This document shows positions 14,702-29,300 of a stretch of 40,280 nt of DNA, in pieces. Numbering within the stretch: position 1 is the first letter of the stretch; every line of letters begins with the position of its first letter. The position numbers and the translations under genes are program-made. Under the pieces are notes generated by a model that was given only the letters and a program-made list of their open reading frames with translations, did not search any database and was not told the DNA's origin. The DNA comes from a virus. The DNA lies in the IMG/VR virus record IMGVR_UViG_3300031772_000097, positions 1-40,280 of that record; one strand, 5' to 3'.

Positions 14702-15311
14702 TACTCAGAATCGCGTCCATCGTCATCTGCGGCCTCCCTCCGTTGCTCGACTGCTCAAGGTAGCGGATAAGCCCAGGCAGTTCCTCTTGCACATCTCGCA
14801 TCCATCCAGTTCCGTCGCAAGACTCGGCTCCGGCTTCGTGTGCCATCCAAAGGTGACGCTCAGTGTTCACTCGGCCCACATGCACTCTAGGGAAGTCCGC
14901 GCACCATCCGCGCACGGACTTCCATTTCCATGCGGTTGTGCCGCCCACAAATACAGCATCCGCTTCTACAGGCACATCGGTTGTCGTCATACCATCCTGC
15001 ACGGCCATTGCAAGCGTCCACCCGTCCAGTCGCGGACGCCACTCGTTCCAGAGGCGCAAAGTCTCGTCGCGGTTTCCAACTGAATCGGGAACCACAACCC
15101 ACAACGGAGGACTGTGCTTTCTCGCCTTGGCAAGCATCCCGACAAACGCTTCGGCATCAAACCCGACAAACGCCCCGTTGTCGCAGGCGTAGGGCGCAAA
15201 CGAAACCGGAGATTTCCACCGGCCTGGGCTGACAAGAGAGCCAATGCGACCGGGGAACCGACCCGCAAGCCATCCCCACCATGCGCCCCTGTCATTTCCT
15301 GGCATGACCAT
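14655..15311 (-). CDS. dpdA: DpdA-like DNA 7-deazaguanine transglycosylase
   Basis: 218 residues. ATG at 15311 shares one base with the QueD stop (TGATG), ribosome site AAGG; upstream ATGs would invade QueD. Relative of tRNA-guanine transglycosylase that exchanges guanine in DNA for a 7-deazaguanine such as preQ0. Key features: ACDNGAF at about 41-47 (TGT DSGGF position, Asp), VVVPDSVGN...TLRLWNEW, FVGGTTAWKWK, and AESCDGTGW with the candidate nucleophile Asp. The TGT zinc site is absent, as in short phage DpdA proteins. It shares a cassette with QueD, the strongest context support. C-terminal SSPNDRLHGREG comes from site e. Confidence 0.75.
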   Translation of the reverse strand: MVMPGNDRGAWWGWLAGRFPGRIGSLVSPGRWKSPVSFAPYACDNGAFVGFDAEAFVGMLAKARKHSPPLWVVVPDSVGNRDETLRLWNEWRPRLDGWTLAMAVQDGMTTTDVPVEADAVFVGGTTAWKWKSVRGWCADFPRVHVGRVNTERHLWMAHEAGAESCDGTGWMRDVQEELPGLIRYLEQSSNGGRPQMTMDAILSSPNDRLHGREGSEAE

Positions 15312-15655
15312 CACCTTGCGTACTCCGCCCATGATGTTTCCGACTCCCACACGCGCACCGATTCAACCGACCAGTGCGCCGATGCCCAATCGAAGATGTG
15401 CCGCGCAATGTTCTCGGCGGTCGGCTGCTTCACCGTGTCGTTGACCGTCGCATGGTCAAACCGTTTCTCGATGTGGTTCTTGAGCGGCGCGAAGTCATGG
15501 AAGTCCATGACCATTCCGCACGGGTCAAGCATCTCTGATCGGACCACGATTTCGACGCGCCAGGTGTGACCGTGCAGCCGCGTGCATCGCCCCTCGTAGG
15601 GAGCAATCAGTTTGTGGGCCGCATCGAACTGGAACGCTTTGCATACTCGGTACAT
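15311..15655 (-). CDS. queD: QueD, 6-carboxy-tetrahydropterin synthase
   Basis: 114 residues; ATG at 15655 with TGGAGA upstream, just inside the cassette boundary of site d. It converts dihydroneopterin triphosphate to 6-carboxytetrahydropterin on the way to preQ0. The family signature is complete: FDAAHKL, Cys at about 23 (GRCTRLHGHTW) with zinc His residues AAH and HGH, GMVMDFHDFAPLK, FDHATVND, PTAENIARHIFDW and a final WESETSWAEY with the catalytic Glu. FolE, QueE and QueC are not in the window, so the host must supply the other steps. Translationally coupled to DpdA. Confidence 0.92.
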   Translation of the reverse strand: MYRVCKAFQFDAAHKLIAPYEGRCTRLHGHTWRVEIVVRSEMLDPCGMVMDFHDFAPLKNHIEKRFDHATVNDTVKQPTAENIARHIFDWASAHWSVESVRVWESETSWAEYAR

Positions 15656-15657
15656 GG

Positions 15658-15984
15658 TCAATCTCCAGAACCAGAAGCCCCAACAACACCCTGCACGGTA
15701 CGCGCAGGAGCGCGCCCGTGAGGGTGGGCGTTCGGTGTACGTGCTTTGAACTCTCCACACCAGTCGCCACCGCGCACCGTTGGTTGCGCGAAGCATCCAG
15801 GCCACTCGATAGCGTCGCGATCCATCTCTGCGTCGGCCAGTGGCTTCGGAGGAAACCTCTTGCAGACGTATCGCGAGTCTTCGTTGTGTTCCTTCTGGCG
15901 CCATTCGTCATCCGCAAACGCGCAGAACTGGCACCGAACAATCGGGTCGAGTCTAGCCTTGCCCCGCGTCGCTTTCTTGTTCAT
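15658..15984 (-). CDS. cysteine-rich cassette protein (zinc-ribbon-like)
   Basis: 108 residues from ATG at 15984 in the loop of site c. VRCQFCAFADDEW...YVCKRFPP...WPGCFAQPTVRGGDWCGEF: same C-x2-C...C...WCG-F layout as the 12822 protein, so the two cassettes carry divergent members of one family and both begin GTTCGGTGC. The C-terminal 26 residues (HPHGRAPARTVQGVV) come from site d. Role unknown; zinc binding likely. Confidence 0.65.
   Translation of the reverse strand: MNKKATRGKARLDPIVRCQFCAFADDEWRQKEHNEDSRYVCKRFPPKPLADAEMDRDAIEWPGCFAQPTVRGGDWCGEFKARTPNAHPHGRAPARTVQGVVGASGSGD
15677..15738 (-). other. attC-like site d
   Basis: R'' ACACCGAAC, R' GTTGGGGC. CACCCT/AGGGTG, CACGG/CCGTG, CGCGC/GCGCG around TCCT; G versus TA, extra C. 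R'' pairs with its cassette start at site c (GTTCGGTG). The QueD ribosome site follows 20 nt after R'. Confidence 0.95.
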
Positions 15985-23951: not shown

Positions 23952-24011
23952 CGCGTCCTCCCTGACTGTCGCCCGGCCACGGGCGTGGATTGAAACCGAA
24001 TCAGATGATCG

Positions 24012-24076: not shown

Positions 24077-24145
24077 TGAAAACGTGAAGCATCTGACTGC
24101 AAACAAAGGGCGAAACGCACGGAATGCCCGGAAACATTGATCAAC

Positions 24146-24184
24146 GTACCTGTAGCTCAATTGGACAGAGCATCTGACTACGGA
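24146..24184 (+). other. tRNA-Arg(ACG) 5' half, probable attachment core
   Basis: GTACCTGTAGCTCAATTGG, then ACAGAGCATCTGACTACGGA matches a tRNA-Arg from acceptor strand through D-arm to the anticodon loop CTACGGA (anticodon ACG). After it the sequence leaves the tRNA: the anticodon stem fails (AAAGA instead of TCAGA) and no T-arm or 3' acceptor exists. Homology ends in the anticodon loop, a known crossover place for tyrosine integrases. Carrying the 5' half is less usual than the 3' half. Confidence 0.6.
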
Positions 24185-24325
24185 AAAGAAGTCATTTGCG
24201 GGCAGAGAATTGAGCCGCAATGTGTTATGACTAGTCCCGTGCGCGTGATGTGCCGGGTGATGTGAGGCAGCGGGCGAAATCCGACCGCTCAGGATGCCCC
24301 AGGACGCGCGATCTCTCGTCGCCGC

Positions 24326-24464
24326 TTATGATCGTACCCAGGATTTTCGGCTTCAGGGACCTCCGGCGGAATTCTCGTTCTCAATTTGGAGAGGGGATTT
24401 TCTCAGACTCGGGATTATGATCGTACATATCCTCATGGAGTCCGGGCTTAATGTACGATCATAA
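24326..24464. promoter_or_regulatory. 14-bp inverted repeat and extra copy upstream of plus-strand operon
   Basis: TTATGATCGTACAT (24415-24428) and its exact inverse ATGTACGATCATAA (24451-24464), 22 nt apart, plus TTATGATCGTAC at 24326-24337. Three copies of one site suggest an operator for the plus-strand genes. The rest of 23952-24572 shows no gene. Confidence 0.6.
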
Positions 24465-24572
24465 GGCCTTGGCATAGAGCCTGCTTGATTACAAGTGCCG
24501 GCGCTCTTCCGCGCCGGCCGGCGCCCGACCGACCCGGGCAACGAGCGGCGACGATCGCCGCAGGAGGTCACC

Positions 24573-25688
24573 ATGACCAAGCAGACCACAACCCCGCCCG
24601 CCGAAACTCTCACCGACGACGCCGCATTTTGGCGCGCCCACGGCACCACGATCGACCGCATCCTCGAGGTCCAGCCCGCCTCGGCCGCCCAGATCCGCAC
24701 CGCGTGGGATTACCGCGCCGAGGGGCTCACCATCGACCAGGCCCGCGAGACCATCGCCGCCCACGTCCGCAGGGGAGCTTATCGCCACGAGCGCGAGGTC
24801 CGGGCAGCCAACGTCGCCGCCGCTGATGCCGCCCGCGCGGCCATCGCCGAGGGGCACACCGACTGGCGCAACTCCGAGTCGTCCCTCCCCGACCTCAACC
24901 GCGACCGCACCGAGGGCCGCATCCTCGCCGCCCTGGCCCACCGCCGCGACCTCCGCGCGAAACGCGCGGAAATGCTCGCCGCGTGCGAGCCGCCGGCCGC
25001 CTGGCTGTCCGCCCGCCTCGCCTGGGATTACACGTGGCTCGGCCTCGTCCTGCCCGACGGTCGGATCCTCCGGACGGACCGCCACGAGGATGTGACCTGG
25101 GACAGTCGGGGCAAACACCACTGGCCCGACAGCCGGAGCACGTACTACCGCTCGCGCCTGCTGCCCTCCAACCCCGTCGCCCCGCTGGATAATTTCGCGC
25201 CGCAGGCCAATCACGACCAGCGCGGGGACTGGCGCTCCCGCGTGCTCGTCGCCCTGGGCCTCGTCCCCGAGTCCCAGATCCGCGACCGCGCGGACCTCGC
25301 CGCCCGCCTGCATCCCGCGTGCACCGTGAGCACCGGACATGCGCTGCCGGACGGGACCCGCATCCGCGAGCGGTCCCTGCTGGGGATCCGCGTGGACATG
25401 GTCGCCCAGTCGCCCGACGGCACGTGTTTCCACGCCCCCACGGCCGCCGAGGCCGTCACGGGCCTGGCCCGCAAACTCCGGCACGCCGCCGCCGCCGCGC
25501 GCGGGGAACTGCTCTCCGCCGATGTCGCCGAAACCCGCTGGGGATTCTGCCGGTCCGGCCTCTCGGAGTTTGCAGAGGCCGCCGGCATCGACCTCGACGG
25601 CGAGTACACCGTCGAGGAAATCAAGGCCGTCGTCACCCCCGAAATCCGCCAGCGTTTCGAGCGCGATCTCGCGCTCGCCGGCATCTGA
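24573..25688 (+). CDS. 371-residue plus-strand phage protein, function unknown
   Basis: ATG at 24573 with AGGAGG. Ala/Arg-rich. N-terminal half is helical with repeated Ala-Arg segments (DQARETIAAHVRRGAYRHER, LAALAHRRDLRAKRAEMLAA). The centre has WLGLVLPDGRILRTDRHED, the C-terminal third HAPTAAEAVTGLARKLRHAA and a final WGFCRSGLSEFAEAAGIDLD, TVEEIKAVVTPEIRQRFE. No catalytic signature recognised. Only long gene on the plus strand; ends 3 nt before the hammerhead ribozyme. Possibly lysogeny or establishment cargo. Confidence 0.7.
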   Translation: MTKQTTTPPAETLTDDAAFWRAHGTTIDRILEVQPASAAQIRTAWDYRAEGLTIDQARETIAAHVRRGAYRHEREVRAANVAAADAARAAIAEGHTDWRNSESSLPDLNRDRTEGRILAALAHRRDLRAKRAEMLAACEPPAAWLSARLAWDYTWLGLVLPDGRILRTDRHEDVTWDSRGKHHWPDSRSTYYRSRLLPSNPVAPLDNFAPQANHDQRGDWRSRVLVALGLVPESQIRDRADLAARLHPACTVSTGHALPDGTRIRERSLLGIRVDMVAQSPDGTCFHAPTAAEAVTGLARKLRHAAAAARGELLSADVAETRWGFCRSGLSEFAEAAGIDLDGEYTVEEIKAVVTPEIRQRFERDLALAGI

Positions 25689-25691
25689 TGA

Positions 25692-25751
25692 GGCCGAAAC
25701 GGCCGCCGCGTGGCGGCCGTCTCCCCGGTAGGGCCGGGGACTGACGAGGCC
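25692..25751 (+). ncRNA. type II hammerhead ribozyme
   Basis: All core elements are present in permuted (type II) order: stem II 3' strand GGCC (25692-25695), GAAA (25696-25699), 8-bp stem III CGGCCGCC/GGCGGCCG with loop GCGT (25700-25719), U25720 and cleavage base C25721, 7-bp stem I TCCCCGG/CCGGGGA with loop TAGGG (25722-25740), CTGACGA core (25741-25747), stem II 5' strand GGCC (25748-25751). It would cut the message between 25721 and 25722, separating the 24573 gene from 25804 and 26136. The stem III hairpin would cap the new 3' end. Confidence 0.9.
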
Positions 25752-25775
25752 AGTTGCCCGGAATCCGCCATGGAG

Positions 25776-25795
25776 GGCGGCAATCCGTTGCCGCC
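25776..25795. repeat. hairpin repeat family G, copy 2
   Basis: GGCGGCAA-TCCG-TTGCCGCC, preceded by TGGAG as at 9996. Lies 8 nt upstream of the 25804 start and would form a leader hairpin next to a weak ribosome site. Confidence 0.8.
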
Positions 25796-25803
25796 AAAAA
25801 GAC

Positions 25804-26139
25804 ATGTCCAACATCAACCCCACCCTGACCATGGGTCAGGCCCTCGCCTGGCTCGATAAACAACCCGAAGACCGTCGGCCCCGCGAGCACGACCGGCGGT
25901 ACACCACGCTCCGCATCTACCAGCCCACCGGATCCGGCTACTGGTTCGTCCAGCAGCACTCCGCAAACCGCTGGTATCTCAAGGATACCCCCGACGCCGA
26001 CCATTTCTGCGTCGCCGACGTGGACGACATCGCCGCCGCGATCGCCGGCGGCGCCCGCGTCCAGCTCACCGGAGTCCGGGGCGAATCGTTCGGGATCTGG
26101 AACTCCTGGGTCGAATTCGAGAAAGGGGTGTCCGAGTGA
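25804..26139 (+). CDS. hypothetical protein after ribozyme
   Basis: 111 residues, ATG at 25804 after AAAAAGAC. LTMGQALAWLDKQPEDRRPR, YTTLRIYQPTGSGYWFVQQH, YLKDTPDADHFCVADVDDIA: alpha/beta, no known motif. The stop overlaps the next start (GTGA). The mRNA would start at the ribozyme cleavage point if it cuts. Confidence 0.6.
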   Translation: MSNINPTLTMGQALAWLDKQPEDRRPREHDRRYTTLRIYQPTGSGYWFVQQHSANRWYLKDTPDADHFCVADVDDIAAAIAGGARVQLTGVRGESFGIWNSWVEFEKGVSE

Positions 26140-26336
26140 ATCGCAGCAAATCCAAATCTGGGGCGCACAACCCGCGCGCGGTCCTCACCCGGGCGGACGT
26201 GTACAACATCCGTCTCCGCGCCCGGATTGCCGAGCGCGAGGGGCGGCAGTGGGGATTGCAGAGCCGGCTCGCCCGCCGGTTCGGGGTGACCCGGCAGACG
26301 ATCTGCGATGTCCTGGCCGGGCGGTCGTGGGCGTGA
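26136..26336 (+). CDS. small HTH protein
   Basis: 66 residues from GTG at 26136. Basic N-terminus, then TRADVYNIRLRARIAEREGR and QSRLARRFGVTRQTICDVLA, a clear HTH (LARRFGVTRQTICDVLAG). Resembles small phage DNA-binding proteins of the resolvase-HTH kind. Last gene of the plus operon; converges on the giant gene. Confidence 0.65.
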   Translation: MNRSKSKSGAHNPRAVLTRADVYNIRLRARIAEREGRQWGLQSRLARRFGVTRQTICDVLAGRSWA

Positions 26337-26343
26337 AGGCGGG

Positions 26344-29300
26344 TCAGCGGCGGGTCCGGGCCTCGATCGCCTCGCGGCGGGCCCGATCAGTGGCGAGCTC
26401 GTAGAGGTGCTTCAGGTGCCGCATGTGGGTCTGCTTGGGATCTACCGGGTCCCAGCGGTAACGGCCAGCGGCCGCCAGGAATAACTCGCCACGCCGGATC
26501 TGGAAGCGCTCAAATTCGTCGTCCGTCATGTACCGCTTGCGGTCCGTCCCGGGATAGCCCGGCAGGGTCATTTCGTTACGCGCCGCCCCGGGCCACCATT
26601 GATCGGTCCAGCCGTTCTTCTCGGCCTTCTGGTTGTAGTTCCAGACGAAACGGTCCAGGGCCGTTGTCAATGCCTCCGGGTCGGGGACTTCCTGGATCTT
26701 CATGCCGCTCAGTATGCGCCAAACCACGTCCGTCGCCGGGCCCAGGCGTTCCGTTTTCTGAATTGGTTGGCCCAGCCAGTCGCGCTTCGGACTGGGAGCC
26801 CAGCCGGGCACCGGCGCCGCTTGCTGTCCGGCCTGCTTGGCGATTCGGACTGCCGCACTGGCCAGCGTCTCGTCATCCTGTCGGCGGAGTCGCAGGTCGC
26901 GGAACTCGGGGTCCCACGCCCGCATAGAGACTCGCGCGATGTTTGGCACCCAGGATGCGGCAAAGTTCGTCAGCCAGCGCGTTGTCCCGCCGGACATGGT
27001 ATCCTCGTCCCAGGCCCGGATCACGTCGCCCAGTCCACTCAAGAACGTCTTGTCCCTCACGGTTGCCTTGAGGGTTGCGTACAGGCGATTCCACCGTTCG
27101 CCTATGTCTTCGTCGCTTGGCCCCTCCTTGAACGCCTGCGCGAGGTCCACCATCGCCGCAAGAGAGGTGGCCATGGGCTCAATGCGGGCGTAGCTCCACC
27201 AGCGTCCGCCTATCCGTATGGACTGCGAGGGATAGAGCGCTTCCTGGATTCCTCGTTCGCCCGCAGGCGTCCGCCGGGGCGGACGGTTCCCTGTAATTCT
27301 CGGTTTGCCCTCCTCGTCGTCCATGTAGGCGCCGACCGCCGCGAACGTTCCCCAGGCGATCAACTGCTCAGCAATGTCCCGGGTCAACTGCCCGCCCTCT
27401 CCGCGGTATTGTCCCGTCGCCAGCTTGACGCCGAGTGACAGCGAACCCAGGGGGGTCTTGCGCAACCCCATCTTAATGATGTTCAGGGGCGTCACCACAA
27501 ACGGCAGCACGTACCGCGATCCCGGGATCGTCTTCCGAATCAAGAGCACCAGCCCGCCGACTTTGCCCAGTCGCTCCTGGTAGGTCAAACGCTTCGCCTC
27601 GGCCAGGGCCTCAGCCTGCATCTTCTCGGTCGGACGCGTTCGCAGGTCCTGCCGCCGCTCCTGGAACGCCTCGCCCTTGAGTCCCTCGGCCCGCGCGGTC
27701 CTGTGGGCCAGGGCCGCGATCGTCGAATCATAGATCACCGTCTTCGCAAACTCATCCGCCGCCAGCAGCATCCGTTGCGGGGCCCGGATTACCCGGCCCT
27801 TGGTCCCCGCAATGGCCAGGCCGCTTTCCTCGACCTTGTGCCCCTCCAACACCGGCTGCTCCGTGGAAAACGCCAGCAGGGCGTGCCGGCCCGCCTTGCG
27901 CATACTACGGAATGTCTCGACCCACATCGGCAGCAACTCGCCCAGCGTGGTCACATCCTTCCGCCGGACAAACACATTCAAGAGCGCCTCGGCCGACTTC
28001 TGCGCCAGCCGGTCTTCCAGCATCGCCGCCGTGTTGCCTATGATGTTGGCCGTCTGCGTGCCGGGCGCCGACAACAGACCGTTCCGCCAGAACTCGAACG
28101 CCTTATCACTTGGCACCGCGCTCAGAGTGTCGATGATCCGTATGATCTCAGAGACCGTGGCGGAATCCCGGAGCGTCTGCTTACTCAACCGCGCCGGATT
28201 CAGCCCCGTGCGCCGCATGACTTCGCGTGCGGTATAGACAATCCGCTCCGCCTTGTCCTTGGCCTTCTGCGCCGTCTCCTCCGGCGTCGTCTCCTTGATC
28301 CGTATGATCTCAGAGACCGTGGCGGAATCCCGGAGCGTCTGCTTACTCAACCGCGCCGGATTCAGCCCCGTGCGCCGCATGACTTCGCGTGCGGTATAGA
28401 CAATCCGCTCCGCCTTGTCCTTGGCCTTCTGCGCCGTCTCCTCCGGCGTCGTCTCCTTGGGCCGGATCGCTTTCCACTTCTCGATCACGGTTTTCGGCTC
28501 CTGCATCAGCGCGTCCGTGATTGTCCCGCGGTTCTGCTCCTCCACCGGCATCCCGGCCCGGTCCCGCCGCTCGCGGAAGGCGGCGCCCATGCGGCTGCCC
28601 GCCTCCTCGTATCGCCCATACGCCTCGACCGCCTCCGCCAGCCCGGACGCATCGCCGGCCTGGATCGCCGCGGACACCTTCTCGTCCAGGAGCCGCTTGG
28701 CCGCCTGCATCTTCGCCGCGTCATCCACCATATTCAACTCGCCCCGCCGCAACGCCGACCATGTTCCCGGCTTATCGGCCAGGATTGCGTCCGCCTTCGC
28801 CCGGATCTCCGCATCCGTCGTGTGCGGCGGCAACCCCGCCGCTTCCCGGGCCGTCCGCTGGGTAGCAGCCCACTTCCACGCCTCGCCCTCGACCATCGGA
28901 TTCGCGAAGCGCGGCTTCGCCGCGCCAGCTTCTTCCTCTCCCGCCTTCTTCTCCACCGCATAGCGGATCGGCTCGTTCGCGGCATTCTCCCGCGCCGCTT
29001 CCCGGATGATCGCGGGGTCATACTCGGGGAAGATTTCATCAACCGGCAGGCGGGATCGCTGAAACCAAGTCCGGGAGAGTTGCCCGCGCAGAAACTCGAT
29101 CTGCTTCAGCCGCTGCTCGCGTTCGTAGTAGGCGGCCGCCTTCTCCGCGGAGAAGAAGCGGGGCGTCTCGTTTCCCTCCGCGTCCCCGGCAAAGTATTCC
29201 CGCTGCCCGTCCGGGTTCAGTACGGATTCAATGAAGTAGGTCCGGCGGATATCCTTGGCGGAGCGCGGCTCGCGTTGGTGGAGAGAGAGAGGCGGGGCAG

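Follow-up and report, generated by a model that had tools for sequence, protein, structure and literature searches.

A type II hammerhead ribozyme between co-directional phage genes and its probable part in processing their message

The 40,280-nucleotide stretch of phage DNA analysed here (the window; IMG/VR record IMGVR_UViG_3300031772_000097, positions 1 to 40,280) carries a complete type II hammerhead ribozyme on its plus strand, in the gap between two genes, after the stop codon of the first and before the start codon of the second. We consider it likely that this element is genuine, very probably active, and processes a polycistronic phage message. The structure of the ribozyme, its place among related elements and its exchange together with the upstream gene are laid out below, followed by the readings that compete with this one.

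Results

Identity and structure

The ribozyme and its principal parts are as follows.

25692-25751 (+): type II hammerhead ribozyme, from the sequence, Rfam RF02276 (38.4 bits), a sub-class model (57.7 bits) and a descriptor with 0 matches in 40 simulated windows
25691 (+): A at position -1 of stem II, near-invariant in relatives (115/116 viral ribozymes among the matches listed; 34/34 in bacterial and archaeal contigs)
25699-25720 (+): stem III hairpin, from the sequence, covariation in relatives and the product fold; would become the 3' end of the upstream message once cut
25722-25740 (+): stem I hairpin with the GU-AGG-GC loop signature and G-C and U.G closing, from the sequence and relatives; would become the 5' end of the downstream message once cut

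Inspection of the sequence finds every part of the type II form. The 4-bp stem II (GGCC 25692-25695 with GGCC 25748-25751) is followed by the GAAA core strand (25696-25699), whose A25699 pairs with U25720 as A15.1-U16.1, by stem III with its eight G-C pairs (25700-25707 with 25712-25719, loop GCGU), by C17 (C25721), by the 7-bp stem I (25722-25728 with 25734-25740, loop UAGGG) and by the CUGACGA core strand (25741-25747), with no core mismatch. Stems I and III are closed by loops and stem II is open, and the conserved core of RF02276 (CUGANGA, GAAA, A15.1-U16.1, H17) is entirely present. Self-cleavage is predicted at a GUC triplet, directly after C17, between C25721 and U25722. The core, the coordinates, the stem lengths and the position of this cut are all as the initial annotation had described them.

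A search with the type II covariance model, which that annotation had proposed as a check, likewise bore it out: RF02276 (Hammerhead_II) matches 25692-25759 with 38.4 bits, a modest margin above the gathering score of 37 (E 1.8e-4 against all Rfam; 4.4e-8 for the family alone within the record), and the same search gives zero RF02276 matches in 14 control genomes. A covariance model built from 37 relatives, with the window left out, scores the element at 57.7 bits (E 6.8e-15), its sole match at E <= 1 in the window and two loci of a related phage. With a strict descriptor of stems and core, applied to both strands, this is the one match in the window, and 40 Markov-simulated windows yield none. 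Judged by Rfam and by the independent model, the element is a genuine type II hammerhead. Rfam finds a single hammerhead in the 40-kb record. The CTGATGA at 25685-25691 might suggest another catalytic strand or the footprint of a duplication, but this was set aside because the motif shares letters with the gene 1 stop codon and is seen in 1/117 ribozymes, the window's own. The 16-mer of stem III has 51 window-like matches elsewhere in IMG/VR, with no hammerhead among them.

A sub-class of phage hammerheads

A GGCC-type II hammerhead pattern matched at least 119 IMG/VR stretches, together with 59 stretches in bacterial and archaeal contigs. The alignment behind the sub-class model, made of 37 diverse examples, has standard pairs in 98.2% of its pairing cells and compensatory changes in 14/17 pairs, against a mean of 9.2 after shuffling, and its covariation score is 0.657, against 0.153 for shuffled alignments. 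Stem I of the relatives conserves its U.G and G-C pairs while the remainder covaries, as does stem III, and loop I takes the form GU-NNN-GC in 96 of 120 relatives among the matches listed. RF02276 reaches its gathering score in only 6 of 48 IMG/VR records chosen for matches to the GGCC pattern, so that the sub-class with a 4-bp stem II and a GU-NNN-GC loop I is under-reported by Rfam.

The window element is thus an additional member of the known phage type II hammerheads, in a sub-class marked by a 4-bp stem II, a GU-NNN-GC loop I and no detectable pseudoknot. It resembles RF02276 (PMC3088659) in topology, catalytic core, the A before stem II, phage setting and GUC site, but its 4-bp GGCC stem II contrasts with the 2 bp common in the family, and a three-base loop I (GU-NNN-GC) stands where the family commonly, though not universally, has a pseudoknot between loop I and the 3' tail. 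In the window a pairing of GGGC (25731-25734) with GCCC (25756-25759) is conceivable, although the C of GGGC is part of stem I; across the sub-class, 13 potential pairings of at least 4 bp were observed where 11.6 were expected, no excess over swapped tails. Because the speed-giving pseudoknot lacks support in the sub-class, the speed of cleavage at low Mg2+ is uncertain. In one record (IMGVR_UViG_3300038412_000035, L011) at least nine closely similar hammerheads occur in about 5 kb, each between different genes, and there the ribozyme has multiplied as a small intercistronic repeat.

Gene neighbourhood

The phage setting given by the initial annotation agrees with the gene content of the record, which includes an integrase, a DnaB-like helicase, the major head protein and injection-type virion proteins. 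The ribozyme lies on the coding strand between co-directional genes, in a plus-strand cassette flanked by two minus-strand genes, the integrase gene and a very large injection-type virion gene.

24573-25688 (+): gene 1, 371 aa, no family match; ATG at 24573, AGGAGG at 24562-24567
25776-25795 (+): stable hairpin GGCGGCAA-UCCG-UUGCCGCC, between the ribozyme and the start of gene 2
25804-26139 (+): gene 2, 111 aa, no family match; 97% identical protein in a ribozyme-free relative
26136-26336 (+): gene 3, 66 aa, HTH-like with weak matches only; 4-nt overlap with gene 2

The ribozyme starts 3 nt past the stop codon of gene 1 (TGA 25686-25688) and ends 52 nt ahead of the start of gene 2, and within this leader the region that holds the second hairpin (25767-25803) folds with -14.7 kcal/mol. 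The initial annotation mentions neither the closeness to the stop codon nor this hairpin. Since the ribozyme sits between that stop and that start, cleavage would split the plus-strand message; this coding-strand position agrees with the earlier proposal that a cut after C25721 would separate the message of gene 1 from that of genes 2-3. No sigma-70-like promoter was found upstream on the plus strand, where phage or host may use other signals, and co-transcription of genes 1-3 is therefore an assumption; an intrinsic terminator was likewise sought on the plus strand near the ribozyme and not found. PHROGs, Pfam and PADLOC gave no functional call for genes 1-3, and the gene 1 protein has no relatives in IMG/VR or in cultured phages. 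An antisense ORF (24489-25832, 447 aa), whose codon-position G+C is unlike that of the other genes, was taken as spurious because gene 1 has a ribosome-binding site, a start kept in the relative and matching codon-position G+C.

Placement at gene junctions

That hammerheads occur in phages was known (Perreault et al. 2011), as the initial annotation noted; its further remark, that their role in each genome is unclear, can be narrowed by where the relatives are found. With ORFs of at least 60 codons, a stop falls within -5 to +1 nt of the ribozyme start for 91 of 116 distinct viral ribozymes among the matches listed and for 19 of 34 bacterial or archaeal cases, compared with 2.5% of random positions in the same DNA, and at loci with several ribozymes all copies share one strand in 35 of 36. 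Phages, as a rule, place type II hammerheads at stop/start junctions, apparently so that a common message is divided into separate ones.

Eight cultured Streptomyces phages (Janus, Paedore, Celia, Thestral, Puginator, BartholomewSD, GirlDinner and Paolo) have 10-12 RF02276 matches each, three of them rechecked with Rfam at its cut-off, in arrays that occupy one strand of the small-gene region in the right arm. The arrays at L287, L288, L290-L293 and L295-L299 (Janus, Paedore, BartholomewSD, Thestral, Celia, GirlDinner, Puginator) take up almost all true intergenic gaps of that region and are unannotated in the phage records. Analysed gene by gene, five annotated phages of this kind have 0 of 54 ribozymes inside a CDS and a ribozyme in 47 of the 56 CDS junctions with a gap of at least 60 nt, most ribozymes ending 14-20 nt ahead of the next start. 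At orthologous junctions both phages have a ribozyme in 15 cases and neither has one in 36, with 5 mixed. The ribozyme-free junctions mostly join overlapping or abutting genes, so the ribozymes separate groups of tightly packed genes. We found no description of the placement rule, the Streptomyces arrays or the covarying tail discussed below in the literature searched, which is not proof of absence.

Exchange of the ribozyme with gene 1

Searches with gene 2 and with the C-terminal region of the large virion protein led to a single close relative, IMGVR_UViG_3300032053_000180. It is 99% identical to the window over 24145-24589 and 98% over 25810-26781, and differs in the segment between.

24590-25809 (+): exchanged segment, gene 1 past its first codons with the ribozyme and leader; unrelated gene in the relative

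The replacement consists of an unrelated 365-codon gene and a spacer without a ribozyme; Rfam at cut-off finds no ribozyme in the relative, and the sub-class model has no match at E <= 1 in its loci (L002, L003). As the relative lacks both gene 1 and the ribozyme, these two move together, and genes 2-3 manage without the ribozyme; having been retained there, they do not need it for expression. From this comparison the ribozyme appears to belong to the 3' end of an exchangeable gene 1 cassette, both being exchanged together, and the nearly identical regions of window and relative form a natural pair with and without the ribozyme.

The 3' tail and competing folds

The tail was analysed from the first pattern scan, in which it had been left unspecified. 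Among the matches listed, a RUCAG stands shortly 3' of stem II, at several distances, in 42 of 120 ribozymes; all 29 GTCAG tails accompany CTGAC, and all 13 ATCAG tails accompany CTGAT. The tail thus covaries with core residue N7 (Fisher 4e-11, a value that overstates the evidence because the sequences are partly related), and over all relatives core-plus-tail folds are more stable than folds with swapped tails (z about -6.9). The covarying tail predicts a hairpin that would cover the spent or unspent catalytic core, a concrete regulatory feature. Loci with a RUCAG tail include L009, L021, L036, L007, L013, L069 and L098.

25740-25754 (+): possible competing hairpin, ACUG 25740-25743 with CAGU 25751-25754, which would occlude the core; from folds and RUCAG/CUGAY covariation

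The window has only this 4-bp ACUG/CAGU pairing, and its class of tails gives a weak signal, whereas that of the RUCAG class is strong. A competing hairpin that also uses a strand of stem I has no signal in the relatives. In short contexts the nested minimum-energy fold beats the ribozyme fold by 1-4 kcal/mol, and with 90 nt of upstream coding RNA, modelled free of ribosomes, it does so by 9-14 kcal/mol; co-transcriptional folding and ribosomes could change this balance. Among the folds of the products, the downstream one prefers a hairpin other than stem I.

Discussion

Self-processing between cistrons, with insulation as its likely benefit, is the reading that we favour, given the placement of the ribozyme, the hairpins expected at the newly cut RNA ends and the analogy with RiboJ. 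Plus-strand transcription would run through gene 1 into genes 2-3, and the ribozyme would fold once stem II closes at 25751 and cut after C25721. The gene 1 message would be left with a terminal stem III hairpin bearing a 2',3'-cyclic phosphate, and the message of genes 2-3 with a 5'-OH, the stem I hairpin at its front and the second hairpin between that and the start codon; the type II permutation places a hairpin right at each of the two termini created. Bacterial RNA decay that depends on a 5'-monophosphate should be slower for RNA with a 5'-OH end. The two messages may in this way gain independent stability and translation, much as RiboJ fixes a 5' end.

Type II hammerheads are common in bacteria and often flank prophage genes (Perreault et al. 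2011, PMC3088659). Tandem arrays from phages were shown to cut themselves in vitro, and a triple array from Agrobacterium did so in E. coli as well; processing of long phage transcripts was suggested, while spliced or circular products went undetected (PMC3088659). The tandem prophage hammerheads of Agrobacterium, Azorhizobium and Clostridium scindens, proposed to cut such transcripts into gene-length mRNAs (PMC3088659), are intergenic and on one strand, as in the window, but the genes concerned differ, and the window, with one copy in its record, is not filed as an array. The Streptomyces phage hammerheads also follow a stop codon and precede the next start, but in 10-12 copies per phage and in the form typical of Rfam. 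According to a 2017 review, the ORFs flanked by hammerheads are small, lack conservation and have no known function (PMC6155905). RiboJ, a hammerhead with a 23-nt hairpin, normalises 5' UTRs in engineered circuits, in work that modelled uncleaved mRNA as decaying faster (PMC7536230). The same order of hammerhead and hairpin upstream of a coding sequence is present in the window, but RiboJ is a synthetic part (PMC7536230), and natural insulation here would be by analogy.

The same observations can be read in other ways. That the sequence is a chance look-alike is statistically refuted and its probability negligible: the E values (1.8e-4 over all Rfam, 6.8e-15 for the sub-class model) and the empty simulated windows (none in 40) speak against it, and we found no point in its support. 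An inactive relic, carried along with gene 1 after cleavage was lost, would fit the single copy, its being missing from a relative with the same genes 2-3 and the competing folds; we hold it to be improbable, as a relic should show changes in the core, whereas here the core is unaltered, none of the 20 pairs is broken and the element scores highly against a model built without it. More deserving of attention, if still doubtful, is a regulated ribozyme, in which a ribosome terminating at the stop codon, a hairpin between tail and CUGANGA, or both, would decide cleavage and tie it to gene 1 translation. Stem II adjoins the stop codon or shares letters with it, the matches listed pair GTCAG with CTGAC (29/29) and ATCAG with CTGAT (13/13), and core and tail form more stable folds together than with swapped tails. 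Abutment of the stop could nevertheless reflect genome compactness, the window's own tail offers just the 4-bp ACUG/CAGU of a class with weak signal, and, being transcribed after the ribozyme is complete, the tail may act only post-cleavage.

A further possibility, which we rate as a minority view, is that ribozyme and leader serve mainly as a conserved boundary for the recombinational exchange of cassettes, cleavage being secondary or making any inserted gene work in any operon. Gene 1 and the ribozyme were indeed exchanged between near-identical phages, although the break-points of the window's relative lie in the flanking genes, outside the ribozyme. Elsewhere homology between L005 and L008 resumes 2 nt ahead of a ribozyme, the ribozyme itself is a conserved island between L007 and L034, and between L007 and L069, L098 or L106 the island is the ribozyme with about 35 nt of leader. 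Among pairs that share a homologous gene on one side, both neighbours are kept in 1 of 43 with a ribozyme and in 73 of 260 at ribozyme-free junctions; in a larger set, counted per junction, the figures are 35/121 and 219/403. At the nucleotide level, in contrast, there is no difference (12/55 and 52/235), the gene calls in unannotated contigs are crude, and the ribozyme-free junctions of annotated phages, with their mostly overlapping genes, are a poor control. With support at the protein level and none at the nucleotide level, preferential break-points are kept as a rival only.

Intercistronic self-processing can also be extended, tentatively, beyond the window. Phage type II hammerheads, the window's included, might form a natural insulator system of stop-fused borders between exchangeable cassettes, giving one message each, in which the RUCAG tail of many phages would fold over the spent core and make the cut irreversible or tunable. 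If so, evolution in phages arrived at the same device that synthetic biology built in RiboJ. What bacterial and phage hammerheads do has been a question since 2011. The with/without pair, and the cultured Streptomyces phages with their 10-12 copies apiece, allow it to be put directly to infected cells, by asking whether every ribozyme cuts and whether gene dose is set by that cut.

Other features of the window

Upstream of gene 1 there is a perfect 14-bp inverted repeat, TTATGATCGTACAT...ATGTACGATCATAA (24415-24428 and 24451-24464), with a third half-site at 24326-24337; these look like repressor operators that might control the cassette. Beside the integrase gene, a tRNA-like fragment (GTAGCTCAATTGGACAGAGCATCTGACTACGG, at about 24148-24190) is likely the attP core, and near-identity with the relative begins there, at 24145; an attP at this place would put the cassette of gene 1, ribozyme and genes 2-3 at one end of the prophage. 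Also beside the integrase gene (23968-23996, +) stands a solitary element resembling a CRISPR repeat, GTCGCCCGGCCACGGGCGTGGATTGAAAC, with no second copy in the window. It matches Rfam CRISPR-DR9 at 26.3 bits, below the cut-off of 45, its form is close to a type I-C repeat, and it may be a solitary repeat unit or an RNA anti-CRISPR (compare PMC10651486). On the minus strand, 15311-15904 encodes a QueD-like 6-pyruvoyl-tetrahydropterin synthase (PHROG 2389), possibly a DNA-modification gene of the phage.
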